Assembly (NCBI GenBank): GCA_949751835.1
Contig: CATKHK010000008.1
Location: forward strand, 1-64,000
Source of the DNA: Blepharisma japonicum
Taxonomy: Eukaryota; Ciliophora; Heterotrichea; Heterotrichida; Blepharismidae
Reading direction: 5' to 3'
Length of the DNA stretch: 64,000 nt
Position numbers and translations under genes: made by a program. Under the pieces are notes generated by a model, which worked only from the letters and a program-made list of their open reading frames with translations, was not told the origin of the DNA and made no database searches. Within the stretch, counting starts at the first letter, position 1, and every line of letters starts with the position of its first letter. Below, one piece after another: positions 3,624-63,636 of the stretch.

Positions 3624-3653
3624 CTGAAATAATAAATAATAAGCCAAATATTG

Positions 3654-4541
3654 ATGGAAAAAAAGAATCCTGCATCTAATGCAAAATCAATGCAGCTAAT
3701 AAAATCAGACTTTACGCTTCCGCTTTTTAAAAGAAAAGTTTTCGACCAAGAAACCAAGCCTTCTCAGGTGTATAATTGGAAAAGCAGCATACCTGAGCGT
3801 TGAATAGAAATTAAAGGACTAGATCATTTTAAGCATGTTTCAGAGGCTTCTAATATAAAAAATACGTTGGATTTTTTGATAGCATCTCAAAAATACATCA
3901 ATAAAATATCACAGCCTGCTTTAGAAAAATATCATTCCCCAAAAGAGCATAAATCTAAAAAATCTTTGAAGCCAAAAACTTCAATTGATTCAGTTAAAAG
4001 AGTTTTTGAGTTTCATACACCTTTATCAAAACACCTAGACCCTGAAAGAATTCCAATTAAACCTCTTGAAAGTAAATCGTCATTTACTGCTCGACAATGG
4101 CCTAAAAAACGATTTACAAATAGTTTAAAAACAAAATACATTATAAAATCAAAATTTTTCCAATTTGAAAACTATTTAATCCAAGAAAATGAAAGTCTTC
4201 CATATATCCCACCTCTTACCGAAAAATATACAATAACAAAATTTGCTCTTCCAAATGGCCTAGTCTCAGCCCACAAAGAAAATGGCGAACCCGATATAAA
4301 AAACACTTCTACTCAGAGTAACCCAAGGATTGAAGAATTTTTCAAGAGATTTGAAAAGAAAAACATCACAATAAATACACCAAAAGAGAGAAAAGGGGTT
4401 AATGGATGGAAGCTTACAAGAGGCTCTTTAAAATCTTTTTTAAAAAAGAAAAAGCCACCAAAAAGGTCAAACTCTGAAGGACTGCTTAAAATCGCCCCGA
4501 AACAAGAAAACCCACAGCCAGCTATCATCGACGAAATATAA
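3654..4541 (+). CDS. Unknown basic protein, 295 aa
   Basis: I do not recognise this protein. It starts at ATG 3654, 30 nt after the stop of the BEACH-WD40 gene, and reads through a TGA (3801-3803, Trp in 'PERWIEIKG') to TAA at 4541. The sequence is rich in Lys, Ser, Pro and Phe, with no membrane segment and little predicted globular structure; the C-terminal third has Lys-rich clusters (KKKKPPK). It looks like a disordered, basic, possibly cytoskeleton-associated protein, but that is only a guess from composition. The short spacing to both neighbours on the same strand is typical of this compact genome. Confidence 0.75.
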
Positions 4542-25824: not shown

Positions 25825-25905
25825 AAAAATTATTATTTTTTAAATGGGAATAATTTTAAAAGAAAAAATTAATGTAAAATCTATTTATAGATAATGAATT
25901 ATCTT

Positions 25906-28758: not shown

Positions 28759-28764
28759 ATACAA

Positions 28765-29833
28765 AATATTATTATTAAGTAAATTTTTTTATGGTTTCAT
28801 ATCAATGTTGGAAGCAAATTTAAATTGAAAAACGAAAAATTGTATTGATAATTGCCTTTAGAGGATGTTTTTCAATTTTTTTTTCAAGTTTTCAAAAGCA
28901 AAAAAATTTGTAACGTCTTCGGTGATTGATAAAATGGTTATGTCAATTCAGTAAGTAACATAATGGGATACATGTCACACATATTTTGTGAAAGAAATAG
29001 CTTAGAAAAGTCTATGATTAGATTGGTGGAGCCGAAAAATTAGTGACTAAAAGAATAAAATGATTTTGAAATAAAGTGTATATAAGATCACTAAAAAAAA
29101 ACTCAGAGTTAAACAATCTTAATTAAAGATATTCGAAATTATTTGTGATTAGACTAATTAATTTTAAAAATATTTTATTAAGAAAGAACAAAGAGTAAAT
29201 AAATCAATGTTTTAGAATAGATTTTAAAATATAGACTAATTTCACAACTAAAAGTTGAAAATTAGATAAGATTAACATGAGTGCTTAAATAACAGCTTTA
29301 GAGTTGCGTCCGCTTTACAGTAATCAAAATGGCTAAACACAAGATTTTTAGAGGCAAGGCTGAAAATCAGACTTTTCGGCAGTGATGCCCTTTTGATTTG
29401 GGACAGATATTTGCTGGGCAACACTACATAAGTCCACTCGTCATGGGTAGGATGGGTTGTTCCATCTCCCAACCAATTTATGTGTACAACTAAAAATCAA
29501 ATTTTTAATATATAATCTGCTTATATACTCTATTTTGCATATTTATTCAATTTGATAATCTATTTGATTAAATTAAAAGTTATCTAAAGTTTTACACTTA
29601 TATCATTGAATATTTGGATAATTGAAGTAAACATATTATTGATCAGTTTTTATAAAGATTTTTATTTGCAAGCCATCGCGATTTTAAAGTATTTCAAAAA
29701 CATTTCAGAACTTTTTTAATATCAAAAATATAGAAGAAATAGAAATTCATACTTAAATGGAAAATTAAAAGAATAATTAATAAATATGCACAATTTTATT
29801 CAAACCTTTATTTATAGTTAATAATGAAGATTA
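28765..29833. other. 1-kb intergenic region with a GC-richer island
   Basis: Most of this 1.07-kb stretch is very AT-rich and shows nothing. The exception is about 29285-29480, where base composition rises and a minus-strand frame stays open (see the separate entry). The left end must hold the promoter of paralogue A and the right end the 3' flank of paralogue B. Confidence 0.55.
29272..29472 (-). pseudogene. Possible small gene or gene remnant
   Basis: A minus-strand frame of about 66 residues, extendable upstream by some 25 residues through a TGA, has a protein-like sequence (GDGTTHPTHDEWTYVVLPSKYL, LASKNLVFSHFDYCKADA). It sits in a GC-richer island inside an otherwise AT-rich gap. The upstream extension soon meets TAA, and no good ATG context or partner exon is seen. 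I cannot name a family. It may be the 3' part of a decayed gene, a small gene with an intron I failed to see, or chance. Confidence 0.3.
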
Positions 29834-43713: not shown

Positions 43714-45645
43714 TTACGCGCTAAAATTGTCATCTCTAAGCATGCTGAACCCCAAAGAATACTCATTTTTAAAATTAATCCCTTCAACCCATTGTTTATA
43801 TTTTTTATTTTCAGTTGGGGGCGGAAACAATGGGTCAATTGCAATCCTAAAAGCATTCTCTAGCATTGCAGGAATTAATTTAGCTAAATATGAGCATCCT
43901 AATTCCAAGCATGGGTTTGTGTTTACCTCTATCAGTCAAACTTTAAAATCCCTATCAATCATAAAATCATACCCAAAAACCTCAAAAGCATGCATTTTTT
44001 TCTGATCATTTAAAATTCCTTTAACTGCTTTTACACTATCAAACACAAATTTTTTTATTTGTGGCAAAATATTATCGTAAAAATTTATTTCTGGATAATT
44101 ATTTGTAAGGTATTTTTGGAAATCTGAATACGAAAGCTTATTACCTGACTCAAATTTCCCATATTCTTCGCATTTATTTTGGACTGCATCATTGGTTAAA
44201 TGAATAAATTTATCGTTTGATTTTAATGAAAATTCTTTTGAGGCTGTCCTCAGATATCCTTCTTCGTAAAAATAGGCTTGGAGATATCCATTTATGCTGG
44301 TAACTAATGCATAACATCTGATATCAAATTTTCTTTTATTTATAAGAAGTGGCTTGTCGATGTATTTTTGAATAATATAGGTACGCTCTTTTGATCCTGC
44401 AAGAGAAACTATTTCGTTTATTTCTTGAAGAGAATTGCTGACTCGGATACCGTTTCCTCGATTTGTATTTTCTCCTGGTTTGATAATTCAGGTTGAATTA
44501 AGAGTATAAGCTGAGTTAAAATCATTTCAGCTTTGAGAATTTAAGCTGTCAATATGAAAAGTAGTGGGAACAGCTTGGAATATATCTTGATTAATAGAGT
44601 CGTAGTAGGCTTTTAAGTTGATGAATAATTTCTTTTTGCTACAAAGACTGCTATTATTAGGTAATCTATTATGAATCTTGACAATTTCCGATATATTTTG
44701 TATTGGCCTTAGCCTTGTATAGCATGGCGAGCTTTTAATTAGCAAAGTTCCTTCAACCTCGCTCTGTACAAATTTAGATGGAGTTTCTTGGACTAATTGC
44801 TCTTCAATCACTCCAGTAAAATCAGGCAAGCTCTCAATAGTAGATCTATGCTTTAGCTGAGTCCATATCAAATTGGCTTGAGATGGATTATCAATTCTGC
44901 TCCACCATCACCTTGATTTCATAATATGATTCACTAAAGGTGAATTATTTCCTTTCCCAATATAATACTTAAAAGTTGTGACTTTATTTTGAAAATCGAC
45001 TGCATTGCTTGACTGTATCAGTTTAATTCATTTATTTCAAACGATTTCTTTCGGGCATATCTTCAATTTTTCGATTTTTGGGATCTTTTTTGGGGTTTTA
45101 TGGGTTCTTTTAGGCTGCTCTATCTTTGGAAGTTCTGCGAGCTGGGGTTTTAAAGATGGTTTCTTTTGAGCTCGGAAATGTGGATGTGAGGAAATTCCTT
45201 CAATTGAAATATCAAGTGCTGGACAAATAACTGTTTTATTGAGCTTTTTTGACTCTCTTGACTGCTCTCTTCCAACCCTGTTGAAAACACCTAAGATGCT
45301 TCGATTTACTGAATCATCAATAGGCTGCATAATAGCATCAAGGCTTGTCTCTGCAGTTTCAGTTTCAATTGGTGGTAGATCTAATACATTTTGAGGAAGA
45401 GGCTCTAGAACGACACAGTCAGAGTTATTACGTCTTGATTTTTGTCTTTGGCAATCATTTGTGCTTTTAGGCTTTTCTTCATTCAATATAAGACTCTCTT
45501 TTGACATGCTTTTGTAATCTTTTCAATGTTTTCCTAGTCTAGAAATTGATGGGACTTTAAAATGTTCCTGCTCTTTTAAATCTTGTGCTCTTGATTTAAC
45601 CTTTTCTACCACAAGCTGTGAAAGAAATTCAAAGTCTCTTTCCAT
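43714..45645 (-). CDS. Tubulin tyrosine ligase-like (TTLL) enzyme, 643 aa
   Basis: The C-terminal 400 residues carry the TTL domain with its ATP-grasp motifs: 'WIIKPGENTNRGNGIRV', 'QKYIDKPLLINKRKFDIRCYALV', 'KFIHLTNDAVQ', 'GYDFMIDRDFKVWLIEVNTNPCLE' (metal-binding E and N; the Trp is TGA at 43936-43938). These enzymes add Glu or Gly chains, or Tyr, to tubulin tails; polyglutamylation or glycylation is usual in ciliates. The subtype is not decided by the motifs I can read. The N-terminal 250 residues are unstructured and rich in Lys, Pro and Ser. Several TGA codons (e.g. KHWKDYK, WNKWIKL, SRWWWSRI) are Trp. The start ATG at 45645 is the first in frame. Confidence 0.92.
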
Positions 45646-46043
45646 AATTTTAACTGAATATTAGAAATAGGCAAGACTTATTTAAATTTTGTTTCGTTTC
45701 GAATGAAATGTAATTGAAAAATTAAGATTCATTGTAATGGTATAACTTTTGAATTAGATAAGATTGATACCATTATATAGTTAATTATATAAATGTGAAA
45801 TTTAAAAGCGTTGAAATAATGCTATAATGAAAAGACGTCATAGAAAGTGAATTTAGAATTTATAAATATATATAAAACCCAAAAAATAATGAAATAATAC
45901 TTATGAACTTAAGATCTATAATATTCTAGATTCCTACTTTGTTCTATTTTATAATATATAAAACTTAAAATAATATTTTAGGCTATATAAAATTAATTCT
46001 AATCTTTCATTTTTATATTAAATTGCTTTATCCTAATTTTATA
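45646..46043. other. AT-rich intergenic region
   Basis: About 400 bp of very AT-rich DNA between the start of the TTLL gene and the 3' end of the giant gene. No ORF, RNA gene or repeat is evident. Confidence 0.5.
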
Positions 46044-49000
46044 TTATTGTTTAAAAATATTAAGAGGTACAGACTCTGTCATAATTTCCCAAGGATACTT
46101 CATAAAAGGTGACCAATTTCCTTCAGGCTTTTTCAAAATCTGCTTTACATCTCCTTTCTTCCTCAGCTTTAAAAATTGTGTAGGCTTTCTTATCTTAGGT
46201 AAAGGCAAATCATTAATAGAAGATGAATTATCCAAAGTCCTCTTTCCTAATCTCATCGCATCATTGAGCTTCTTCAAAAATTTAATTATTTCGGCTTTTT
46301 TCCTTTTTTCGTTGCTTTCACTAATATACTTATCGTAAATCGCTCTTCCAACCGCTTTTATTAATAAATCATCTCTGCTTGATGATGAAGAATCTTCAAT
46401 CTCTCTTTGTACATAATATCTTATTGCATCATAAAAATCTCCTTCTTTCTCATAATTATTTTCATTCTCTTCTACTTTTCATACTTTCAGAAGGTTTCCA
46501 AGCCATAAAATAAATCTTTCAAGTATTCAGAGAAGTAGAACAATTAATGGAACTGAAAATAGGGCTACTACATCTTTAAAAGGATTATAACTCCATAAGA
46601 CTCAGAAATCTACAGCGTATATTTGAAACACCATTCCAATTGTGGAAAGTGTCATAACGAAATAATATTGAGGACTAAAGCCAAACCGCAAAAGATTTTC
46701 GGTGGATTTTAATAAAGTGCGACCTGAATGGGGAGTGCGATCTGATAAAACCCATCTGCAGCGCCTTCCTTCATATATTCCTTTGAGGTCCATTAACTTC
46801 TCAGAAAGAAGTCTGCCTGTTCTACATTCAATAGCATTATTTAAAAACACATCATAGCCGATTTCTGCAAATGCCTGCATAAATGTAAAAACTATAAAAT
46901 ATTTCAAAAAATCCTTAGGAATTGATATTTTTAATTCCTGATAAAAAATATAGTTAAATACAATGGAGCATGGGAAAATTCAAGCTGCAATAAAACCCAT
47001 AGAGTTAATTGCCAAATCGTTAATTTGTTCAATATAAACCCTATCTTTGAACCCTAGCCCAAAAGAGGGGTCATCCCCTCCTCCAAGCTTAAATCTCTGC
47101 TTGATTTTCATAACTTTATTTTTGATTTCAATTCGATATGGTTCCAGAAAAGCTCTTGTTCCAATTTTTATAAAAATTTGCGTTAAATACCCAGTCAAGA
47201 AACTTGTGAAAGCGCCAACTTTGACTGTAATAAGCATAATCGTTAGACTAGTAGCTCCAAAAAATGGAAGAGCATATACATCGTCATCAAATTTAATTCT
47301 TGCTTTCTCAACTATCTTCCCGCTCATAAACCGAAAAACAGCAATGAAAAGTGTACTGAGAGATCCATATACTGAAGATTGTGAGAACTGATAGATAGCT
47401 AAACAAAGAATAAGAACAGGAATGCTTTGCCAGAAAAAAAGACCTTTTAGCCTTTTATTTTCTTCATTAAGACTGTGAAGCTCATCAGGATTTTCACATT
47501 TTTCAACTTTTGGAAATAAAAGAATGGATGATCGATAAATCATATACCAGCCTAAAATACACATAGAAGCTCCTAGCCTTCCGTTTTGGTATGTCTGTAT
47601 TCTTTGTGAGTCTGAAGCTAGCCCAGGTGTTATTGGCTCTGTATCGTCCCAATCTCCAGGAATTGTTTGAAGGTATTCTATATTACTATAAATTTCCATT
47701 AAACCTAAGCAAAGCCCAAAACAAGGAAGAGCTCCCATTGAAATCCCTTTTAGCGAACTTAATGAATATTTCAAATAAAGAGTGATTTTCAGCTTTGGTC
47801 TTGGAAGAATTGATGAAAAAGTATAGTTCAAGGCCCAGAATACAATAATACAAGTAAAAATAAACAGACATAAAAGCATCACAAATAAATAATAGAGGTA
47901 TTCTTGAAATGCAAATAAATCTAAGCACTCTTTCCAATGCAACGGATAAAGATAGAAAGTGAACTCGTATTCCCTATTTGTAGTATCTTTATCAAACTCT
48001 GAAAAATAGATAATGGCTTGTAAAATCTCTTTATCAATCAGTGACTTTTGGTAATATCCTACTTCCAGCCTGACTTTTCTAGGAATCATTCCTGTTGAAT
48101 AATCTGCATTTCCTCTTTTGGCTTGTACAGCAATTAAATTTCCTGATCCATAATATGAGGAGCTGAATTCATTTCCACTTGTAGTAGAGTTTGGAATATT
48201 TTTTTCATAGTAGCTTTGCTCCAGCTGAGGCCTTGTTAAGTAAAAAATGTAAGACTTACTAAGTTCATAAGCAGCTATTCAGTTATCTTTTGTGCTTGAA
48301 GCTAATACATTTTCCGCAATTCTACATGTAAGACTTATATCACACACATCGCCATTGGGTACTTTAAAAGGACTTAAAATGTCTACCCATGTAGTATCTT
48401 TAGTGGCTACAAGATCACATTTGGGATGGGTGACTATTTCATAGATTGGAATATTAGCTCCATATTCATCACAATCCGTAATAAAAGGAATATAGTCAAT
48501 AGGATACAAGTTTTGGCTGAGCATAAGCCAATCCCAAAGTTTTAGTGTATCTTGATTATATACTGACTCGCTTTTATCATTATCACCTAAACTTGATATC
48601 ATTGTAGCTGAAATATCATTTATTATTTCAGGATTATAATTATCATACGAGTCCACTTGTGAGCTATTCGGTAGAATACTGAAAATTCCCAAATTGTTGG
48701 GCTGGTTAAAATCATCATTGCTGAGTCTATTTAAAACAGCTAGAAAGCTTGTACCTGAATTTCTAGTAGGATATGTCAGATTAGAAAGAGTAACGCAATT
48801 CTCAAACAAACTATAAAGAGATGGGTCTGCAAAAAGCCCATAAAGAAGCTCAATCTTAAACTCAAGTTTCATTGAAGTATGAGTCAAAACTGCGAAATCC
48901 CAAACTTTACCTTGCTCAGAGATTGCTGATGAATAAACATAAGCAAGCGGAATCCTATATCTAGGAGAAAAGCTTTCGTATTCTACAAATGGAACCTTTT

Positions 49001-52000
49001 TAACAGTTCCATAAGAATCTGTATATTGGATTGATAAAATGTATTGGTCTGGCATTGTGCTTGGAGGAAACTTTGTAGTATTAAATACAAAAGTTGCGTA
49101 GCCCATAGCATCCATATTCAAATATGATTGGTCATCATTAATAGAAGCATTGAAATAGCTAAATGGCGATATTGTTCCAAAAATAGCTGCATCCTTCGAA
49201 GGATCTTTAACACAACCATATATTGACTTAGCTCCTTCTTCACTTATTGTTCCAGAAGGGCACGCAGTTCCTTCGCCACTTCCTTGCGGACAATATGAAT
49301 TTCTAGGGCATTTATACCCAACAACACAGTTATCTGGGGTGTTTTGACAAGTCGCAAGCATGTCATTGGTTACTCCAGTTCCTTCAGGGCAATAATACCC
49401 AGCAGGGCATGTATTATTTACTAATTGAGAGTTGTCACTGATTCCTTCAGGACAATAATATTTCGCAGCTGAGAGTATATAAGCTGAGCTTGTGCCTTCA
49501 GGACATATAAAACCTGAAGGGCACAGTGACATTTCTGACATATAAGCAATTCCTGTACTGCCACATACATATTTGGCTGGGCACAACTTACAATTTAAAT
49601 ATGATTTTAGACCGATGTTTCCTCCACTTCATCTACCTTGAGGACAATCCTGGCAATTAGGTGTTACCCCAGACCTATATTTTCCAAGGGGACATGGCAA
49701 AGGTTTTACTGTGCCTGCATTTGGGCAGTAGTAGCCATCTGGGCAATTTGAGCAGCGAGAGGCCATACACCGATCATTATAAGTACCAACAGCACATATT
49801 TGTGGGCCATTAGAGTCATTTGGGTTATCAGAGCCTGTCCCTGATGGACAAGCATAGCCAGGCTGACATGGAACAGGGGTTAGATCATAAGGAGGATTTA
49901 CTGTGCAGCTTGTTACATAACTAGACTGAAGCAATCTTCCTGAAGAAGACTTAAAAGAAGAAACTTTAGTATTAGTGCCCTTTAGACAAAAATAACCAGG
50001 TGGACAAGGGCCAGTTGTATCAAATAGCCCTTCAAGATCACAATAATAGCCAGCTGGGCATATAGTGGGCTCTGTTGAATTTGTCTTTGGACAAATATAC
50101 CCTACTGGGCACGAGTAGCAAATTGCTTTTCCTGTTTCATTTTGAAAACTCCCTACTTCGCAAAGCGTATTGTTGCTCGATCCTTCAGGACACATAGAGC
50201 CTGCAGGGCAAAGAGTTGGACATTTATATAAGGTTTCATCGCAATACCCAGCATCTGATACTGTTGAATTTACCCCAGATTCACAATAATAGCCTACTGG
50301 GCATGCTATTCCGTCTGATAACCCGACTTGATTGCAAATATACCCTGACTTGCAAGGTCAATGCTGAGTCATGGCTTGATTAGGGCAATAATACCCAATT
50401 TCGCATTGTGTGCAAGCCCCTTTTCCTCAGTCAGGGTTATAAGTTGATGGCGCACAAGCAACAGGTAAGGTTGAGGCTGTATCACAGTAATAGCCAGGCT
50501 GGCACATTTTTGAAAAAATAGTTCTATTTTCAGTTTTTGGTGAATCACAATAATAGCCTGCTTCGCAGGGTATGCAGTAAGATTCTCCGCATTGTGACTG
50601 ATAATAACCAGGGGAGCATTCCATAGGAGCTGATAATCCTTCGACTGGACAATAATATCCGTATGGGCATGAGCAAGTCATACATTGTGTTCCAGGGCTA
50701 CATATATCATCTGTTTGTTTACCAGGACAGTATTTGCCAACTTCACATGTGCTATCGTTATCTCACATTTCTCCACTACCTGGCTCACAGACAAAACCAA
50801 GCATGCAGGATCGGGGTGCCCATCAGTCGGTTTTTGTAGTAGAAAGAGTGCTTGTATTCACAGCCATAGTACAGTATGCATTTTCAGGGCACAGGCTAGG
50901 GGCAACAGCAGTTTGACCATTAAGTGACTCAGCTCCAGCTCTTAATGAATCTATGCATGTAGGAATAAAATGAGGAACTGTATAATAATCAGCAGAATCA
51001 CCCATTGCACTTCCTCTCTTCCATCAATGATCTGTATTATTGATTAGATTGCTAGATTTGAGAGTCCAATAGTCATGATTATTTGATATTATTTGAGTAT
51101 TTGTTCCCTCAATGCAATAATATCCTGGAGGGCAAGTTACTAAAGGAAGCTGAATTCCACTCCTATCACAAATAAATCCGGCTTGGCAAATTTCTTGAGC
51201 TGGCATACCATCGTCTGGACACATGTAGCCTACTTGGCAAGTTTTGCAGGATGATTGAGCATTTTGATCTTGATAAGTTCCAGCTTTACACGGAGTTGGC
51301 TGATACACAACACTATACCCAGGAGCACACATAGATCCAGCGGGACAATCCTTTATTTGGCCCGTGCTATCTAAATACTGGCCTGAATTAAACACATTTG
51401 AGTTATACGCAAATGTTGTAGTCTTTGAGCTTCATTGATAAGGATTACTTGTAGGAGACAAATAAACAATTACAGTTGCAGTGTCAAGTTCAGGAGGAAC
51501 TATAACTGTGACAGAATTTGATGTACAAGAAGAAGCTGCTACTATTTTGTAACCTCCAAAATTAAGATAGCTGGTTGGGCAAGGAGACCAGTACTTTCAA
51601 TCTACACTGAAGGTAAAGTTATATCCACCTAAACTATGTCCTGAACCAGTGGATAAAAGAGAAGGTTCTCCATAAACAGCTAAATATGCGAACACACAGT
51701 CATCACTATATGTATCTCTTGGGCAAACGTAAATTTTGCATGCTTCAGAATCACTATTGGAGTTTCATGATGAATCAGGCTGAGAAATGGCACAATATCC
51801 TATGCTATTATCATTATCGTCAACATAAAACACTCCTTCAACTTGAGTACCACTATTATATGATGTAAAACAAGTAAAGTCAGAAAGAAAATTTCCACTT
51901 TGAGATTTCAATGTTATAATATTGCCAGTTGCTCCAGTAATCTTGCTTGGGCTTGTAATTCAGCAGGCTGTCGGATTAAATACTTTACAATATCACCAAT

Positions 52001-55000
52001 CTGCTACTCAATTTTTTGGAACTGTGGTAGTAGTATGATCAAAAGTTTGTGGATATATAGTTGAAATTCCCATATAATTTTCTAGAAATATTGGAAAATT
52101 CATTATATTGTAATTGCTAGGGATCTGGCAAGTGGTATTATCTAAATTTTGGCTTATAAAATTGCATTGCCTTGTGCCAACATAAATAGTAATACTGCCC
52201 TCATAGCCATATATATAAATATAAGGATTATTAAAAGAAATTCAATTCCCATTGTTTAGCAATGTCCCATAAATAAGAGACGTACAATTGAAACTTTGGC
52301 AAAAACCAATATAAGCTGAAGTATAGGACGTCAGAGAATTGCATGCTACGCTTTGGTCCTGGTCAGTTATTCTGACTTCAAAAATGTCACTCCAAAACAT
52401 AGTAACTGATATAGAGCTTCATACTAATTGGTTACCTCCATTAATACTAATCACTCCATTTGTAGCTTCATTTGTTCTTGGCATCACACAAAATCTAAAG
52501 CTATTGAGCTCATAATCAGCTCCTTGTAGAGCCCAGCCAGCTATCTGGGTGCTTCTATATATTTCAAATCCAGTATTTTGCCAATATGTAAAATAAGGAG
52601 GGTGATTTACAATGTTTACATTGATATGAAAAGTTGTATTACTACAAATGCTATCATTATCACAAACTATCACCATAACATTTTTACTAATGCTTTGGCT
52701 CATTATATATGGTGACTTTAAAATGGTTCCTTTTCCTTTCAGAGTTAAGCCTGGAACAGTATCTCCTCCTAATGTGACTGTAAGCTGGTCTAGTGATTTA
52801 TAAGGGTTGAAATAGATAAGGTCAATTGATAAAGAAGCATCTTCAGACACAGTTTGGTCTGGAATTGTGGTAAAAGTAGTTGGGAATTGGTATCATTCGA
52901 CATTTAATATGATGATTTCAGCAATATCGTAGTTTGAGGTATTTGCTGTTTCAAATACCCTAATTGTTATAATGCCCGAAGAAGTGTGGTAATACATAGG
53001 CGTTCATGATACTGAGTAAGTATCTGAACCTGTTGAGATGGGTGCTATAGTGATTCCGCGAGGATTTGTTCCATCGATAACTAAAGAAAGGTCTGAGATG
53101 GGATTATCTGAATCATAAATTTTAAAATACCTAGTATCAGTTCTTCCTTGTTTAAAACCTGTAAACAAAAATTGTTTTATCGGGTAAGTGCTATAAAAAG
53201 GATTCGAGCTATCATAGATTAGTATCTGAGGAGGATCATTAATTGGAGTAATAACCATATCAAAGTCTTGGCAGGTTTGCTTTTGATATGTTTTGTGATC
53301 GTTTACACATAAATTGAATTTCGCATATTCTATAGAGTCAGTATTTATACTTCCTACAGATATCTGCACAAGTCCATAATCACCAGGAGTAAATGTAGGC
53401 TGAAAGGTTGTATTATAAGTAAGTGTAGCAGTAAGGTCTTCAATATATGTGTATTTCTCTGAATAAACAATTCTATAATAAACAAAATCATTCTCATTAA
53501 GATTCCAAGCTCCAGTCATCGGAGTAATTACTGGATAATAATATGGATACAGGATGAATGAACAATAGCCTGTCACTTTTGTCAACGAATCTTGTGCATA
53601 AACTGTAAGAGTAGGTGTAGGCGTTGAGTTTGGTGGAGTTCACGTTAAAATTCCAGTATTTTCATAAGATATTGTTGAATAAGAGGGGCTTAAGGTATAA
53701 GTAATTGTGCCATTTGTTACATAAGTTGCAGGGACTGATGTGTCTAATGTAAAAAGTGTTTCTGCTGGAATTGAAAGCTGGTCCCCACTAGGACAAGTTG
53801 GATTTGGTATCTCATTAGCTCCAACAATATTTAATGCTACAGTGATGCAGCCTTTCAAAGGATTATATTGATGATTATCCTGAGCACAAACAGTCAGACT
53901 TAGCTGATAAGGATATGTTTTCCCATCTGGAATTGAGTCTGGTGTTGTTCATTGCACTAATCCAGTTGCAGTATTTATTGTGGGGCCTGAGAAATCTACA
54001 GTAATACTACTATACGAAACAGTTTGGTTATCAGTAGCAATGAATAGTTGCGACCAAGGCGTGCGTCCTAATTTTAAATCATATGTTGTATTTATTCCAG
54101 GGAAGGTTGGTCTTTCATTAGGATGCAATGAAAATGTTTTTACTATACTTCGATTAAGCACATCGCTTACATTCATAGTCAAAAAATATCCGTTGTAGTT
54201 AGAATTTAATGTATTGTACCCATTCACAGCATTTCAAGTCACAGTGCAATATTTTGAAGATCCGCTTTGAACAGGCGTCTGATAAACATCACAAGCTCCT
54301 ATATTAGCATCAATAAATGTGCATTGAGTAACATCTGAGCCAACTGGCACATTGCAAGTCCAGACTGTTCCTTCCCCAATAACAGGTGAAGGAGTACAGA
54401 TATCACCAATCCAAGGATCTGAAATATCTTTTATAGTGAGCGTTGCCTGCATGGTTGTTATTTGAGGAAGTATTTTTGTATCTGTAAAAGTTGCCCGACA
54501 AAGAATATTAAAAGTGTAAGTCCCAGCTGTCTGAGGAAGCCATGTCAAATTATAAGAACTAATCCCACTATTAGTTGTTTTTGAAATTGGAACAGCACCC
54601 ATATTAATAGGTGAATTTTCTAATAAAATTGAAAGGTCTTCTACATCAGCATTAATGCTTTCAGCATCTACTGTCTTCTGCCAAAAAAAATTGGTGTATC
54701 ACGTCTCTCTAACTGTAGAAACTGTACAATTATTTCTAAAGGTAAGTGAAATAGTATTGGACCGTGACATTGAATTATTAGCAGTTAAATAACAAGTAAA
54801 AGTTATACTTACAGTTGATGAGTTCGTTGTTACTCCGCCTTGCGTTACAGTATTATTGACTCCATTTCAAGTTAAAGTGTTGCTAGCTCATGTAGGAGGA
54901 CTATTAAAATTTGTGGAAACTGATTTTGTGCAAGTAACTTGTTCTCCATACAAATAACTTAAATATTCTAGTTTATATGACCAATATCCACCTATAAACA

Positions 55001-57296
55001 GCTGATAGGCTTGAATTGGAGGAGATTTTATTAAAGGAGCCCTATGCACAATTAAAATAAAAGTGCTTGAAACTGTCACACCTTTAAAGGTGCCTGTATA
55101 TGTTATATATCCTGAATTTCCAAATGAAGATGTAGGGGTTCAAGCTAAACTAGTAGCTGTGCCAGCTGCGTTTGAAGGTAAAGTTGTAAAAGAATAGCTA
55201 TCAGGAGTAATAGATTTCATATCAGTGCTAAACTGCTGTGTAAGATCTACAGTACATAGCGAATCAACATAACAGTCATATGTCCAATTCGAAATCATAG
55301 AAAATGTTTGAGAATCCGCTAAAACTTGGATTTTGAAGGTTTGGCTAAAACTTGTAGTAGTCACAGAGTCGGCTATTGCGATTGTGATTTGTTGAGATTC
55401 TTGATAATTTGAGCCTGCCAGGAGTGAGCTCATATCTGATTGAGACAATGTTAAGCTGCCTTCATTTGTAAGACTATAAGCTAAAGGACTTTTAGAATCA
55501 GTAGCAGTGAAGGTAAGTAAAGTTGAAATTGAATAAGTTACATAATATTTCACGTCAAGTGTAAAAGATTGAGATGCATAGGCCACCAAGCTTGAGCTTG
55601 GAATTGTGGCAATTTGGGGATTACTGTAGCTCCTCAGATTAATTTTAAATTCCATAGAAGTTGCTATTTGTGATCCTAAATAGTTTGGCGTATTAACAAA
55701 CACTACATAATAGTCAGTCCCTGTCGGGATATCTACTTCTTCTCCGTAAGAGCCTTTACTAACAGTTGTCCATACCAAAGAGATAGAGGAAGAAGTGCGT
55801 GAGACTGTCGGAGAAAAGTTGCTACTAAATTCTAGAGTTAGCTCGTCAAGGTTGTAATAAGTTATTGTTAAAGGAACCGTAATTTGTGACTCAAAAAAAT
55901 AATAAATAGGACTAGGAGGCAAAATGATAGGAATATCTTGGATTTGCAATGTCAAAGAAGATTCTGTTGTTGGGGTACAGCAATCGCAATTATCAAAAGT
56001 TATCTTATAATAGATCACTATTTGGGTATTAACAGTAAATCCATTAATTGAATTTTCTATTATTCTGATTAGACCATTTTGATTATCTATAAGTTCAACT
56101 TGTGCAGTATTGGTAGATAATGTTGCATCGATAGATAATGAATAAATATAAGAGGAAAGTGAATAGCTAGGATTATAAAATCATTCTCCACTGTATCTAT
56201 AAATAGTTTTTGTTGTAGCAGTTCCGATAACTGCACCATAAGCAAGCTTTGAAAGATACTTATATGTGATTGCCACTGATGTGCTCAGCTTATTATTCCC
56301 ACTTGAAGTAATTCCAGAATCTGTAGCAGTGATACTTAAATAATAAGTACCATAAGATAATGAACTTTTAGGCGTTATAGTGATTAATTTAGTAGATCCA
56401 CTAATTGCCGAAGACTGAGAAAATGAGCTTGTGTTGTTTATAGAAACAGTTACGTCACTTACATTATGATTTTGATCTGTAACACTAAAAGTTAATGGGG
56501 AAACGCAATAAAAAGAATATGTGAGTCCACTTGAAGGCGTTATCACTGGAGCAATATTTGGATAATAAGGCCCTAGCGTTAAAGTTTGATAGCAAGTTGT
56601 AACTTTATCATAAACCTATATAAATTTCACATTTATAGTCCAGCTTACAGAGTCAGTAGTGCACACAATCGGGTCATAATAAAAAATTCCATTTTTGAGC
56701 ACAGTGATGCTAACAACATTTTTTGAACCCAAAGAAAACTCAAACCGATTAGTATCTCGGTTATCTATTGAAAATTGTCCTGCATATGGAACGTTGCATG
56801 CAGGAGTTATACAGCTAGAGCAATAATTATTTGTTGAGGTGCAGTCTGATGTGCAAGAGGCACTTGAAGTCAGCTTGATAGGTGAAAAATTAGGATCTCG
56901 AACATCAAAAGTAAGGGCTAAAGCATTAGATAAGGAAGCGCCATCCAAGGTCCCAGTAACAGATGATATCATAGAGCTATCATCTCAAACGAGAGCATAA
57001 AATGTTTTAGATCCTGATGATGTTGGTGTATATGTTATTGATCCAGATGTAGTTATAGCGATACCTTCAGTTCCAAGAGATAATATATCAAAATAGCAGG
57101 CAGTCGGTGAAGTTACTGGGCTACAAGCTCCTGGGCTGGGAGAGTTTAAAGAATCTACAGCATTCAATTGCAATGTCAGTTGAGAATTTGTGCATACAAT
57201 TAATTTTTCAGGAGAAGGACTGCACAGTGCCGGATAATCGATTGCCGTAATGATGTATATTGTAAAAGTGATTAAAATCAGCAATTCTTTAATCAT
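46044..57296 (-). CDS. Giant receptor-like membrane protein, about 3,745 aa (1 intron)
   Basis: A single frame runs for 11.25 kb once TGA is read as Trp and one 15-nt intron (56616-56630) is removed. It starts with a signal peptide (MIKELLILITFTIYIITAI). Residues about 20-1950 form a long beta-rich, Ser/Thr/Tyr-rich ectodomain with recurring Ig/cadherin-like phrases ('ITPINDPPQI', 'VNIVNHPPYF', 'TATDSGITSS'). Residues about 1960-2700 are a cysteine-rich array of GCC2/GCC3-type units ('CPAGSMCAPGY', 'CPPGYYCIEGTNT', 'CPVGYICPKTNS'). Another beta-rich part follows. From about 3130 to 3610 there are 9-10 TM helices, then a cytosolic basic tail. The family is not known to me. The extracellular design suggests surface recognition or adhesion. 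Confidence 0.88.
56616..56630 (-). other. 15-nt intron in the giant gene
   Basis: On the coding strand it reads GTGAAATTTATATAG: GT...AG, 15 nt, A at position 10. Without removal the frame stops at the TAG. Removal joins 'SVSWTIN' to 'VYDKVTTCYQTL' and keeps the frame for the next 3,500 codons. Confidence 0.88.
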
Positions 57297-57387
57297 TTTT
57301 ATATATTTTGGTATTTTAATAATGGGAGGAGCTCTTTTAAAAGTTCGGTTTTTTATTACACTAAATTGGAAATATTAACAATTTTCA

Positions 57388-57870
57388 TGCATGATAATAA
57401 AATTAAAGGTTTAGAATCAAATATTGCTGTAAGAAATTTATTTAAGGAATTTATAGATGGAAAACTAAATATCTAGCATCTAATATAAGAGATAAAGCAT
57501 GAGATAAGCAAGATGGCTAGCAGACAATATCATAGAGTTATTATCTCAGACGAGAGCATAAAATTTTTTTCGATTCTAATGATATTGGCGAATAAGTCAA
57601 TAATCCAGATAGAGCTGCAGAAATACTTTCAGTCCAAGAGGTAAGATATCAAAATAACAAGCAATTGATGAAGCCTTTGGATTGCCGGATAGAATGAAAA
57701 AAGAACCATTTAATGAAAAATACTTTTTGTTAATTTATTTATGTTCAATATAACAGAGAGCGGTGCTTTCTGAAAATTATAAATGAACGAGTTTAGCTCA
57801 TTAAAAATTTATAAATTTCTAAAAATGTTGAGTTTGATCTAAGTCTGCTGCTGAAGTCTCATTCTTTTTA
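57388..57870 (-). pseudogene. Decayed partial copy 1 of the giant gene's 5' end
   Basis: About 480 bp that aligns by eye with the 5' coding part of the giant gene (about 56870-57170), in the same orientation. The best block is TCTCAGACGAGAGCATAAAA here against TCTCAAACGAGAGCATAAAA at 56983-57002. Further matching blocks follow at 'TCAGTCCAAGAGGTAAGATATCAAAATA' (gene: 'TCAGTTCCAAGAGATAATATATCAAAATA'). It is a non-coding relic, with many substitutions and small gaps. It shares extra changes with copy 2, so the two copies are closer to each other than to the gene. Confidence 0.82.
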
Positions 57871-58180
57871 CAAAATTATATCCACTAAATTATTTTTTGA
57901 AATTAATTGAAAATAAAATTAATTTAAATTATGAAAATTATTATTTAGAATGAAAAATATTTAAAAGCTTATAGAATTTTATATCAAAAATAATTTTTAA
58001 TAAAAATTTTAGAGCATTTTTTCTGTGTAGAAAAAGGCAAATTCCAAAAACTGGCAAAAACGACAAATTTTATAAAAATAGTAAAGATTATCAAAATTTG
58101 TATAAAAAAGGCAAATGTTGCAAAACAGCAACAAAAAAGCTTAATTAATCCAACCCGTGAGCGAACAATCTATTACTTTA

Positions 58181-58631
58181 TGCATGATAATAAAATTAAA
58201 GGTTTAAAATCAAATATTGCTAATAACTAACTTAATCGATGGAAAACTAGATCGAATGCCTATATAAGAGATAAAGCATGAGTCAATCAAGATGGCCAGC
58301 AGACGATATCTAGAGCTATTATCTCAGGCGAGAGCATAAAATGCTTTAGATTCTAATGATGCTTGTGCATAAATCAATAAACTAGATAGAGTTGCATCAA
58401 TATTCTCAGTCCCAAGAGCTAAATATCAAAATAGAAAACCACTGGTGAAGTCTTTGAATTTTCGAATGGAATGAAGCATGAACCATTTAATTGAAAATAC
58501 TTTGTCTTAATTTATATATTCGATATAATAGTTAGTGATTTTCTGAAACCTAAAAATTAACTATAGTTAAAATTTTCTAAGTTTCTAAAATATGATTAGT
58601 TTGACCTGAGAAGTCTGTACTGAAGTCTATT
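58181..58631 (-). pseudogene. Decayed partial copy 2 of the giant gene's 5' end
   Basis: About 450 bp, similar throughout to copy 1, starting with the same TGCATGATAATAAAATTAAA and ending with related text around 'GAAGTCT'. The gene-derived block is TCTCAGGCGAGAGCATAAAA. It also keeps 'TCTCAGTCCCAAGAGCTAAATATCAAAATAG', matching the gene at about 57076-57106. The copies are spaced 793 bp start to start, in tandem and in the same orientation as the gene. Confidence 0.82.
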
Positions 58632-58911
58632 GAAAACAGTTCTTGCTGCTTAATAGCATTTTGCTTATTCTCAGAGAGGGATTTCTCCCTAAAAGTCAGT
58701 TTGCTCACTTATAGAGTAAATTGATATTATTTAAGATTATAATTAATAATTAAAATTTCAAATCTGAGTTTAATACTCAATTGAATTCTTTTTTGCTTTT
58801 AGAACATATACTAGCCCTTTTGATCCTAAATAAAGTTACTTAATTACTCTTTGTAACGAAATCGTATTAATAAATTATTGTACAAAATTTGATTAATTAT
58901 ATATGCTCCAC

Positions 58912-59169
58912 TTAAAATAGCTCGCAATGACAAGAGGGCTGCTGAGTATTTTCGATAAATTGAGCTGTTGTGTTTCTTGTAGAATACAGAGAAATATCAA
59001 TAGTTGTTTCATCTGATTTATCAGATTGTGTTTCTATATAATCATCATCTAGCCCTTGAGCACAAGAGTACATTGTTTGTGTATAGCTGATTATACTTGG
59101 TAGGGAGCAGATTGTTTCTTTGTTTTCTCTGGGCTGCATTGGCAATTTAATTAAATTTATTAATGGCAT
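58912..59169 (-). CDS. Unknown small protein, 85 aa
   Basis: A clean ATG-to-TAA frame in a gene-poor area. The protein has an N-terminal hydrophobic-basic start (MPLINLIKLPMQPRENKE), then an acidic Ser/Thr/Asp-rich middle and a C-terminal 'SCHCELF' with two Cys. No TM segment or family is recognised. Its sequence is less AT-driven than random frames nearby, which argues for a real gene, but it is short and unsupported by homology. Confidence 0.5.
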   Translation of the reverse strand: MPLINLIKLPMQPRENKETICSLPSIISYTQTMYSCAQGLDDDYIETQSDKSDETTIDISLYSTRNTTAQFIENTQQPSCHCELF

Positions 59170-59617
59170 ATAAAATTATTTGATATTTTCAAATTCGTGA
59201 GAAATAAGTTAAGTTTTAGAATTCTCATAAATGTGATATAAACATCTCATAGAGTAAAAAAATTATAATGTGAATATGTATGAGGTATTGAAATTATTAT
59301 CCATATTATTGAGCAGTTTTTCAACAATATTTCAGAATTTACTTTAAATGCTCAAGAATTCAATGATAAAATTAGAAAATTTAAAAAGATATAGCTTTGA
59401 TGCATTCAAAATCTATTAAACTAAACATTTTCTTTAATACAATAAAAAATAACTTCCTAAAGTTTATGTGCCTGAAGAAAATACTTTTTAATAATTATTA
59501 AATTATTATAGTTATGAATTTTTCAAGATTATTTTATTTGCATATAAAATTTCACAAAAATATTCCTCAAACTAATATCATTTATCATAACTAACTCTAT
59601 TAGTTTAACTACTTAGC
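59170..59617. other. AT-rich intergenic region
   Basis: About 450 bp, very AT-rich, with no ORF, RNA gene or repeat that I can support. Confidence 0.5.
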
Positions 59618-61282
59618 TTATAACCTTGGTCCTGCAGCCTTAGTTTCTTTAGAAGCTCCAGACTCGTATTTCTTGAAGTTCTCAATGAATTCATGAGCAA
59701 GCTTAGTCAAAGTCTGGTCATATTGTGCCTTGTCTGCCCAAGTATTCTTTGGCATTAGAATCTTAGGGTCAACTCCTGGGCATGTTGTAGGGACATGAAG
59801 TCCGAAGATTGGAAGTTGTTGAGTAGGGACGTTGTCGAGTTCTCCAGCATGGATGGCATCAAGAATCTTTCTTGTAACCTTAAGGTCCATTCTTTTACCA
59901 ACGCCGAATTTCCCACCAGACCATCCAGTGTTAAGAAGCCAAGTGGTGGCTCCGTGCTTTCTGAGCTTAGCTGCAAGCATTTCTGCGTATACAGAAGGAT
60001 GTAGAGGTAAAAAGGCTTCACCAAAGCAAGCGGAGAAGGTTGATTCAGGGTCTTTAATTCCTACTTCAGTTCCTGCAACTTTTGCTGTGTATCCACTGAT
60101 AAAGTGATACATGGATTGTTCAGGAGTGAGTTTAGAAACAGGTGGAAGTACTCCAGAGGCATCACAAGTTAAGAAAATAACATTCTTAGGATGTCCTCCT
60201 ACAGCTGGGATTTTGACATTTGGAATATACTCAAGTGGGTATGAGAGCCTTGTATTTTCGGTAAGTGAAATGTTGCTGAAGTCAACTTCTCTTGTGCCTG
60301 GCTTGAAGCATACATTTTCAAGTACTGACCCAAACCTTACAGCGTCGTAAATTTCTGGCTCTTTTTCTCTGCTTAAGTTGATGCATTTTGCGTAGCAGCC
60401 ACCTTCGATGTTGAAGATTCCTTCATCGGTCCAGCAGTGCTCGTCATCTCCTATTAATTTTCTCTGAGGATCAGCACTTAAGGTAGTTTTTCCAGTGCCT
60501 GAAAGTCCGAAAAGCAAAGTTGTATCACCTTTTGGTCCTTCGTTAGCTGAAGCATGAAGAGAGACAACTCCGTGCTTCGTTGGCATGACGTAGTGCATAA
60601 CTCCGAAGATGCCTTTTTTCATTTCTCCTGCGTATTGGCTTCCTAAGATCACAAGTTTTTGATCTTTGAAATTGACGTTTACAGATGTCTGTGAGGTGAC
60701 GCCTTCTACGTGAGTGTCTGCTGGGAATTCTCCTGCGTTAAGAACGTGGAAATCAATGTGATCGAAGTCAGTTGCGAGCTGTTCTTCTGTTGGGCGAATT
60801 AACATATTGTGCATAAAAAGAGCATGATAAGCTCTTGTGCAAATTATTCGGACTTTAAGTCTGTATTTTGGATCCCAACCTACGTAGCCGTCTACAACGT
60901 AGAGATATGGCCTGTTGTTTAAGTAGTCAATTGCTCTTTGCTTATTGATTTCGTAGGATGCCTCAGAAAGAGGGATATTGACCTTTCCCCACCAAATGTT
61001 TTTTTCTGTGGTTTCTTCTTTGACAACTCTCTTTTCCTTTGGCGAGCGGCCAGTAGCAGAGGCTGAGTAAGCACACAAAGCACCTGTGCTAGAGACTGTA
61101 GTTGTCTTAGTGTATGGATTAGCTGGCTCTTTATCTAAGCATCTCTCATAGTATTCAGGAACCATGAGATTGCGGAAGATGTGTCTGTTAACTATTCCAA
61201 GTTTCTTTAAGTCTGGATGACCTGTCAAGTCATGGGTTTTTGAAACAAAAGACCTGCTTAAGATATTTAAGCGACCCAGCAT
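59618..61282 (-). CDS. PCK: Phosphoenolpyruvate carboxykinase (ATP-type)
   Basis: The 554-aa product is ATP-dependent PEP carboxykinase (EC 4.1.1.49), which converts oxaloacetate + ATP to PEP + ADP + CO2 at the start of gluconeogenesis. Family motifs are present: 'GALCAYSASATGRSPKEKRVV', the kinase-1 P-loop 'GLSGTGKTTLSADPQRKLIGDDEHCW' near residue 260, 'GIFNIEGGCYAKCINLSREKEPEIYDAVRFG' and 'NTGWSGGKFGVGKRMDL'. The N-terminus (MLGRLNILSRSFVSKTHDL) is basic and Ser-rich, compatible with a mitochondrial targeting sequence, though not proof of it. G+C content is higher than in neighbours and codon use looks like that of a highly expressed gene. It is full length with no intron. Confidence 0.96.
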   Translation of the reverse strand: MLGRLNILSRSFVSKTHDLTGHPDLKKLGIVNRHIFRNLMVPEYYERCLDKEPANPYTKTTTVSSTGALCAYSASATGRSPKEKRVVKEETTEKNIWWGKVNIPLSEASYEINKQRAIDYLNNRPYLYVVDGYVGWDPKYRLKVRIICTRAYHALFMHNMLIRPTEEQLATDFDHIDFHVLNAGEFPADTHVEGVTSQTSVNVNFKDQKLVILGSQYAGEMKKGIFGVMHYVMPTKHGVVSLHASANEGPKGDTTLLFGLSGTGKTTLSADPQRKLIGDDEHCWTDEGIFNIEGGCYAKCINLSREKEPEIYDAVRFGSVLENVCFKPGTREVDFSNISLTENTRLSYPLEYIPNVKIPAVGGHPKNVIFLTCDASGVLPPVSKLTPEQSMYHFISGYTAKVAGTEVGIKDPESTFSACFGEAFLPLHPSVYAEMLAAKLRKHGATTWLLNTGWSGGKFGVGKRMDLKVTRKILDAIHAGELDNVPTQQLPIFGLHVPTTCPGVDPKILMPKNTWADKAQYDQTLTKLAHEFIENFKKYESGASKETKAAGPRL

Positions 61283-61720
61283 AATTTATTATTGGCTAAG
61301 AGCGCAGATAATATGGGTGGCTGATATTAAAGATGATATTATTTAGACCTAGATTCTAAGACAGCTATAGTTTTCAAGCATAAATAAAATTATAATCCTC
61401 TCAAGGCTGCAAAAAATGGATTATAGAACAAGTAGAAGAAGTCTTTTTTTAAAAAGGTCTTTCGTCAAAAAATTAGATTTAATAGCAATTATGTATTTTA
61501 TAGTTATTTATTTTATTATAATTATTATATTTTGATATCAATAATTTTTGGGATTATCTAAGAATAAGATTTGCATTTCACCATCATAGTGTAAAATAAG
61601 ACCATTATTTAACATTATGTATAAAATAATTTGAGAAAACGAGAATTAGACACTTTTATATTGTTTAATATAATTTAGCTTACTATTCTATGTATTGTGA
61701 TACCACAACGAGTACTTAAA
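61283..61720. other. AT-rich intergenic region
   Basis: About 440 bp containing the promoter of the PEPCK gene and the 3' flank of the kinase gene. AT-rich; nothing else recognisable. Confidence 0.5.
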
Positions 61721-63079
61721 TTATCTCCTTGCTGGCGATGCTGCTTTATGTTCAAGCCTCTTTTTAATATTAGAAGGAGTTAGCATTCTATAGTGTTTTA
61801 CGCTAAAAATTGGAGAATTTCCATTACCTTGAGACATCCTAAGTGAAGAATCTGCAGTTAAGGGAGATTTGGAGGTTCCTTTAGAAAAAGGTGTCCAATC
61901 CCTCCCTTGTAAAGGTGTTTGATTTCTAGCTGTTTTATAAATTTTAGGATGATTTAACGGCGGAAGCACTGGAAATTTTCTCTTGCTTTCTTTTGGCTTT
62001 TCCTTATTATTTGCTATAAGTCTTTTAAGCTCGTATTCTTCTTTAAGTAAATTTAATCGATTTTTTAAAACTTCAGGAGTTCTTACTTCAATTTTTTTGT
62101 CTTCCGCATGATGTGTAATTGTTGCTTCATGGTTTTTGTTGTTTACTATACACGAGAATAGAATAGAGTATATAATTCCTTTTAATTTCAATTCTTCTCC
62201 ATATCGTTTGAAGATTTCGAAGGAAGTCAAAGGAATTTCTTTCCCAGAACGAAGGATTCAAGGATGATTTAAAGCCTGAGAAGCTGTGTAGCGTTCTAGT
62301 GGGACCATTTCTGTCAGTTTTAAGAATAATGATTTAGCTTCTTTTGAAAAGTTTTGGTGGAAATGCCATTTTGGCCTTTTTAATTTTTCTAAATATGTTG
62401 AGACTTTTTCATTTGGCTTTGCTAAAGGATGAGAATTATTACTCAAAATCATATAGAGTAAAATTCCACAGCTCCAAATATCAACTGTTTTACTATATGA
62501 CTGTGAAGAAGCCTGCTCTGGAGCCATGAACAGTAAAGTCCCGCACTTTTCGTTTTCCATAAAATGTTTATAGCGAGAGTCATATAGAGTGCTGAGCCCA
62601 AAATCAATAATTTTAACACAACTTAAGTCTTGGTTATCTGGAACTAAAATATTTTCTGGCTTTATATCCCTGTGGATTAAATTTTTGTCATGTATATACA
62701 CTACAGCTTGTAAAATCCCTTTCATAATTTGAGATGCCTGAAGATCACTAATTTGATTTTTGTGTATGTATTGCTTTAGATTTCCCCCGTATATCATTTC
62801 CATTACTATAAATAGTCGTAAATCAGTCTCTTTTAGATGCTTGAAATTTATGATATTTGGGTGACTTAAGGAGGACAAAATTTCGGCCTCCTGTTTTAAT
62901 TCAGAGACCCTTCCTTGTTTAACGTTATGCTTTTCAATTATTTTTATAGCTACTTCTTCTCCTGTACTTTTATCAATTGCGTGGATCACTTTTCCGAAAC
63001 TTCCACTACCTATTGTGTCAATATAAACATAAAAATCAGAGAATTTGTCGTGGTATTCTCCTTTGTCGAATTCTTCCAT
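61721..63079 (-). CDS. CAMK-like serine/threonine protein kinase, 452 aa
   Basis: The kinase domain spans about residues 17-276: glycine loop GSGSFGKV, VAIK lysine (AIKII), 'HRDIKPENIL' catalytic loop, 'DFGL' Mg motif, 'GTLLFMAPEQ' for the APE position, 'DIWSCGILLYMIL' and the end 'ALNHPW' with Trp from TGA 62258-62260. All catalytic residues are present, so it should be active. The HRDIKPEN and the SLSHPNII/HPW phrases are of the CAMK/CDPK type, but no EF-hands follow. The C-terminal 170 residues are basic, Pro/Ser-rich and likely regulatory. The start MEEFDKGEYHDKF is the first ATG. Confidence 0.93.
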
Positions 63080-63636
63080 TTTGTCAATTTAGTGAAAATT
63101 ATGTCGAAAGGACAACAATTTCGAGGATTATTTATTATTTTTGTAGGCTTGATTTATTTTTTTTAAGTTTTGTTGAATATTTGTTTGGGAGAAAAATTAA
63201 TTTTTATTTATTTACAATTGCTATGGCGCTTTAGAAATCGTAAGATCTGTTAAATTATGCATCTAGATAGCTAAAACCTAAAAAAAAAGAGATCAATAAG
63301 AATATTAAAAAATAAAATAATCTTCTACTGCATGGACACTATTTCCCAGCATTATTATCTTAAAGGTTTAATCCAATTCTAATTCCTTCTATTCAATCAC
63401 TCTAAATTCTCTATATCATCTATGATAATCAAAGAAGTGGATAATTAAATTTTCTTATAACAATTATAACACAAATTTCATGCTTCACAATATAAATCAA
63501 TTTAAACCTGCAATTTTCCAGAGGAATAGAAAAATAGCATAATATCTTTCCTTTAAATTTGTATAACTTCAAAAGGCTAATATCTTTATCTTCACTAAAT
63601 ATCAATTAGTATCTTCATTTATATTGCATCACATAA
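63080..63636. other. AT-rich divergent intergenic region
   Basis: About 555 bp between divergent genes with presumed promoters of both. Short open frames here are AT-driven and unconvincing; no RNA gene or repeat is seen. Confidence 0.5.

Follow-up and report, generated by a model that had tools for sequence, protein, structure and literature searches.

The question raised by this locus is what kind of protein is encoded by a giant gene at positions 46044..57296 (minus strand) of the stretch of DNA analysed here, a window of 64,000 nucleotides (positions 1 to 64,000 of contig CATKHK010000008.1) from the heterotrich ciliate Blepharisma japonicum. A preliminary description, made from the sequence alone, knew of no named family with the predicted domain order and put the gene forward as the best candidate in the window for an undescribed system. 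Neither claim is supported, since cysteine repeat modular proteins (CRMPs) are described with the same order, namely a signal peptide, a variable ectodomain, ephrin-receptor-like cysteine (Cys) modules, a multi-transmembrane (TM) block and a cytosolic tail (PMC9815656, PMC9670195). Most likely the gene encodes a trigger protein of a kind already described, not a new system: we put at roughly 0.52 the probability that it is a CRMP-type receptor of a heterotrich, licensing extrusome discharge, the comparison with CRMPs being by description only. This reading is drawn from a match of layout to published CRMP passages, together with a split between conserved core and divergent ectodomain that was measured in paralogues. 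New here is a family member with unusual ectodomains; the kind itself is ordinary.

The gene is real and well bounded. Translated with TGA read as tryptophan, it runs on the minus strand from an ATG at 57296 to a TAA at 46044-46046. The sole internal stop, a TAG, forms the last three bases of a 15-nt GT...AG intron, GTGAAATTTATATAG (56616..56630, minus; read from 56630 to 56616), and splicing it out joins exon 1 (56631..57296, minus; residues 1-222) to exon 2 (46044..56615, minus; residues 223-3745 and the stop) to give a protein of 3,745 amino acids. The coordinates, intron and length that had been proposed are thus right by translation, which also supplies the strand that the preliminary description had left unstated. 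The in-frame codons include 30 TGA and 32 TGG. The longest open frame comprises 3,523 codons, the maximum among 100 chance samples being 237 (first-order Markov samples with the dinucleotide frequencies of the neighbourhood, not exact shuffles), and agrees with the earlier view of a large surface receptor encoded in one reading frame. An in-frame stop lies upstream of the ATG, 26 codons separating the two, and the plus strand within 46044-57296 contains no frame of 150 codons or more. The probability that several distinct genes, or contigs wrongly joined in the assembly, have been mistaken for one is close to nil: besides the long open frame, an intron-less paralogue on another contig (designated C65; 3,680 amino acids) has the same order, and the array, juxtamembrane and TM parts align colinearly with it (residues 1967-3655; 27%, E 4e-150).

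The protein begins with a signal-peptide-like start (57237..57296, minus; residues 1 to ~20), judged from a hydropathy peak at residues 1-20. A variable, Cys-poor ectodomain follows (51627..57236, minus; residues ~21-1885), which is probably beta-sandwich-like, to judge from a weak Big_13 match below the Pfam threshold (20.5 against 27 bits) and four linker-like motifs. These same features lend weak support to the Ig/cadherin-like character first ascribed to it, against which Pfam searches of the gene's protein returned no cadherin and no He_PIG match. Immediately N-terminal to the Cys array lies a marginal TIG-like domain (51453..51626, minus; residues 1886-1943), with a domain E of 0.004 among four sequences against an iterated TIG profile that was built from the same four family proteins and may already include these residues. 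The Cys array (49212..51347, minus; residues 1979-2690) holds 74 Cys and 22 CxxGx(1-2)C motifs. A CRMP-type array of Cys modules ahead of the TM region is hence present by motif, not by curated profile: PF07699 (Ephrin_rec_like), which we take to be GCC2_GCC3, matches residues 1906-2700 in three stretches at 16.1 bits (E 0.0096), below its cut-off of 23.1. The GCC2/GCC3-like motifs reported earlier are accordingly visible in the Cys spacing but fall short at the level of the profile. Between the array and the membrane, paralogue alignments delimit a conserved juxtamembrane region (47928..49211, minus; residues 2691-3118) in which Cys 2937, 2955, 2980 and 2986 are invariant in all four paralogues.

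The multi-TM core (46491..47903, minus; residues 3127-3597) is predicted to hold nine to ten segments. A strict hydrophobicity scale (of the Hessa type) gives eight in each of the four paralogues; mapping the four together gives ten clusters, or nine when 3423-3448 and 3454-3476, which are neighbours, are taken as one; the earlier figure of 9-10 is best kept as an estimate. AlphaFold2 was run with the three-paralogue alignment on residues 2690-3745 and on residues 3095-3612, giving models with a mean predicted local distance difference test score (pLDDT) of 42.5 and 50.5, respectively, both used for helices only. From the first TM segment onward, the model of 3095-3612 has 13 helices of at least 12 residues, ten of them at hydrophobic clusters, at low confidence. 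The structure prediction that the preliminary description had suggested for the C-terminal part thus makes helices visible, but with low pLDDT and with no Foldseek match for 3095-3612 at E<=0.001 among 490 PDB and 217 BFVD matches at E<=10. The remaining residues (3598-3745; 46047..46490, minus) form a tail which, said to be basic, proves only mildly so, with 30 K/R and 23 D/E over the last 145 residues. An odd TM number would place it in the cytosol; an extracellular N-terminus and a cytosolic C-terminus would follow from the signal-peptide-like start together with an odd number among the nine to ten.

Comparison may be made with the CRMPs of Toxoplasma (TgCRMPA/B), Plasmodium (CRMP1-4; described in PMC3083381) and Tetrahymena (CRMP1/2). 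Like the gene's protein, these have a long variable N-terminal ectodomain with low conservation outside the core, ephrin-receptor-like Cys modules that adjoin a multi-TM block (nine TM in Toxoplasma and Plasmodium), and several copies per genome with a conserved core; the CRMP C-terminus is cytosolic. As set out in PMC9815656, two Toxoplasma CRMPs have several cysteine-rich domains and nine TM segments, EGF-like domains and TM segments make up the conserved core of apicomplexan CRMPs with low conservation elsewhere, and Paramecium has an expanded CRMP set. CRMPs trigger rhoptry exocytosis in Toxoplasma and mucocyst exocytosis in Tetrahymena, where co-expression led to three genes whose products combine a domain of EGF-receptor type with multiple TM segments at the C-terminus, and complete knock-outs of two of the three were both impaired in mucocyst discharge; the C-terminus of TgCRMPa was placed in the cytosol, and a sensor role was proposed by the authors (PMC9670195). 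Contact sensors of this build serve other ciliates in firing secretory capsules and malaria-type parasites in cell entry.

Evidence that the gene follows this plan also comes from its own genome, searched as an assembly of 45.2 Mb in 224 contigs. Its last 744 residues found four further places on three contigs, which hold C65 and two more paralogues, C38 (3,233 amino acids, two 15-nt introns) and C1 (2,565 amino acids). The cores of C1 and C38 recovered the same four genes and no others at E<=1, and the TM part of C65 recovered three of the four at E<=10, missing C1; as only the best candidates were scored, the family has at least four genes. The part after the array matches C65 at E 1e-46, C38 at 8e-26 and C1 at 1e-13. 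The ectodomains behave differently. Those of the gene's protein and C65 match none among the four proteins at E<=1 (for residues 21-1840 against the three paralogue ectodomains the result is the same), and a genome search with residues 223-1905 returns nothing but the gene itself at E<=0.01. Conversely, the ectodomains of C38 and C1 match each other, and both carry IPT/TIG arrays. At the position equivalent to the TIG-like domain, C38 has a clear TIG domain (1222-1297), C1 a partial one (671-700) and C65 a non-significant match (0.067). A four-sequence tree sets the gene's protein and C65 against C38 and C1 (UFBoot 86, SH-like 0.96). This genome thus has a receptor family with four or more members, which share the array, the juxtamembrane region and the multi-TM core and diverge in their ectodomains. 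The CRMP-like pattern of a conserved core with a divergent N-terminal ectodomain is thereby found among the paralogues, the match between C38 and C1 notwithstanding.

The array does not by itself define this family. A further giant Cys-array protein used as a control and read in part, C44 (C44:306000-311500), has an array that strongly matches those of the family, so that array matches alone lack specificity. C44 has a single TM segment and a long coiled-coil tail. Its post-array part is without a match to the family core, and C44 was rejected as a member; the family is consequently defined by the post-array core, not the array. Across the genome, PF07699 has at least 87 matches (among the best 150 of 289 candidates), some of which lie in open frames 1,800-3,200 codons long. 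Many of the matches cluster on few contigs, C33, C53 and C117 among them, and indicate that domains of this type are numerous in the genome. C44 is the one other long-frame Cys-array gene that was read, C35, C36 and C53 being left out.

The division between core and ectodomain also bears on whether the protein is simply a structural or adhesive surface component, of the glycocalyx or for feeding or substrate adhesion, whose multi-TM block is an anchor without signalling. Adhesins often contain TIG and Ig-like domains, and the ectodomain is rich in sequons (39 N-x-S/T over residues 21-3110). Nevertheless, nine to ten TM segments exceed what an anchor needs, and C44 manages with one. Moreover, all four paralogues retain the juxtamembrane and TM parts, whereas the ectodomains of the gene's protein and C65 are not conserved, the opposite of what a passive anchor predicts. 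We regard such a role as quite improbable.

In adhesion GPCRs and polycystins, too, a multi-TM block follows a modular ectodomain of large size. The gene resembles them in this order, but Pfam searches of residues 223-3745, whole and in three pieces, gave no 7TM, GPS/GAIN, REJ, PLAT or ion-channel match, which upholds the earlier statement that the protein is neither a standard GPCR nor a polycystin. No relative of the core appeared in PDB sequences, Pfam, viral contigs or prokaryote contigs: PDB sequence searches gave nothing credible, five pieces (three of the gene's protein, two of paralogues) gave nothing over cut-off in NCBIfam, and the four-paralogue alignment gave 264 pattern matches in viral contigs and 25 in prokaryote genome contigs, none confirmed by tblastn.

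A receptor for mating or cell recognition deserves closer attention. Such a protein would correspond in function to Tetrahymena MTA/MTB/MRC1 or be the putative gamone 1 receptor, and its variable ectodomain would recognise the partner or a pheromone. MTA, MTB and MRC1 share with the gene's protein a Cys-rich part (in their case the GFR domain) and several TM helices, and MTA and MTB also a variable extracellular N-terminus, which in these proteins is mating-type-specific (PMC10901506). The receptor for gamone 1 on type II cells is itself termed putative (PMC10892320), and an ectodomain that cannot be aligned with those of its paralogues is what would be expected of a recognition part. Furthermore, layout alone cannot separate an exocytosis sensor from a mating receptor, because Tetrahymena CRMPs are likewise predicted to have five TM segments (PMC9670195). 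Set against this, MTA, MTB and MRC1 have five TM helices, and MTA and MTB, with a GFR domain in the terminal exon, form a head-to-head gene pair (PMC10901506), whereas the family described here has at least eight TM segments in each of four paralogues and nine to ten in combination. The complex of MTA, MTB and MRC1 spans 92-212 kDa (PMC10901506), to be compared with 3,745 amino acids. There is no head-to-head partner among open reading frames (ORFs) of at least 150 amino acids: the flanking ORFs, tubulin-tyrosine ligase-like (43714-45660, minus) and an ATP-type PEPCK (59618-61285, minus), lie on the same strand, and no ORF of that length starts on the plus strand from 57375 to 59603, where shorter or intron-split genes may remain. 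The number of TM segments, the length of the protein and the failure to see a head-to-head partner all speak for a CRMP. A mating receptor, the chief alternative, we consider unlikely, and we rank regulated exocytosis above the cell-cell recognition first suggested.

It is tempting to speculate that CRMP exocytosis sensors and MTA/MTB/MRC1 make up one receptor superfamily, of which the four-gene set would keep an early paired form that may serve both pigment-granule discharge and gamone or partner recognition. In this proposal the nine-to-ten-TM core stands nearer to the apicomplexan than to the Tetrahymena TM number, and Ig-like or TIG ectodomains have been swapped in the two subgroups. We give this idea as little credence as the adhesive role.

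Several observations weigh against a CRMP. The PF07699 matches of the gene's own array stay under the Pfam cut-off, and the four family arrays are absent from the 87 matches listed for the genome, drawn from the best 150 of 289 candidates. Nor is there a Kringle or EGF match in the Pfam searches. GAIN/GPS was not matched in residues 2701-3745 by HMMER, whose filters drop most matches above ~0.1, whereas HHpred places a GAIN domain in two Tetrahymena CRMPs, CRMP1/2 (PMC9670195); as it is described for two members, this domain is not treated here as diagnostic of CRMPs. The ectodomain also differs, being Ig-like with a marginal TIG domain and with TIG arrays in two paralogues; the domains of selected CRMPs include ERC and He_PIG, and TIG is not in their domain legend (PMC9815656). 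Predicted TM segments number nine in Toxoplasma and Plasmodium but five in the CRMPs of Tetrahymena (PMC9670195), closest by organism, against nine to ten here. The models, besides their poor quality and uninformative fold searches, favour ten helices at hydrophobic clusters over exactly nine, and on this account the probability was lowered slightly to the value given above. The proposed homology to a named CRMP is one of layout.

If the gene does encode a CRMP, a mode of action can be envisaged by analogy with the proteins of Tetrahymena, Toxoplasma and Plasmodium. The receptor would sit in the plasma membrane, ectodomain and Cys array outside and tail inside. Members of the two subgroups, the gene's protein with C65 and C38 with C1, may associate by way of their TM blocks, following the heterodimer model for CRMPA and CRMPB (PMC9815656). 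The ectodomain would detect an external stimulus, be it contact, a predator or a ligand, and the signal would travel along the juxtamembrane region and TM blocks to the cortex, where docked extrusomes, here the cortical pigment granules, would be licensed to fuse, the receptor itself remaining outside the fusion machine. Blepharisma pigment granules are termed pigmented extrusomes in a title cited by PMC9942806. Ferlin_C, found in the class of proteins to which the rhoptry exocytosis factor Fer2 belongs, gave five matches in the genome, four of them over the cut-off, one of these four only together with its neighbours; by domain match these indicate that ferlin-type proteins exist there, and nothing more.

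A true CRMP would extend the family, possibly with its organisation in two subgroups, to a deep ciliate branch, the heterotrichs, help to establish the age of the signal-sensing arm of regulated secretion in alveolates, and provide candidate genes for the trigger of pigment-granule discharge in Blepharisma. No report of heterotrich CRMPs was found for Blepharisma or Stentor in the openly licensed PMC papers searched. Unless the gene can be tied to mating receptors or to the discharge of pigment granules, its significance is modest.

The genome has the traits of Blepharisma: TGA read as tryptophan, 15-nt introns and the telomere repeat CCCTAACA. Three units of this repeat gave 168 matches (77 forward, 91 reverse) and the reversed control pattern none, many of the listed places lying within the first hundreds of bases of contigs and, on C38, reaching the last base. 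For B. stoltei, PMC9942806 gives UGA as tryptophan, a predominance of 15 and 16 bp introns, the telomere repeat CCCTAACA and an assembly of 41 Mbp with 64 telomere-to-telomere sequences.

Upstream of the ATG lie two decayed copies of the gene's own 5' part, at 57450-57673 and 58300-58434, ~780 bp apart (73% over 239 alignment columns and 78% over 137). Their frames are broken, and they also align with each other (57561-57742 with 58338-58519); by their alignments they are relics of a duplication of the 5' end. Elsewhere in the window, a protein kinase ORF occupies 61721-63088 (minus), and at 25899-28788 several reading frames on the two strands hold long open stretches that overlap, with a strong AT skew. 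G+C at 26001-28000 is 0.416, the highest among the 2-kb steps of the window, and the region 25899-28788 is perhaps repetitive or biased coding sequence.

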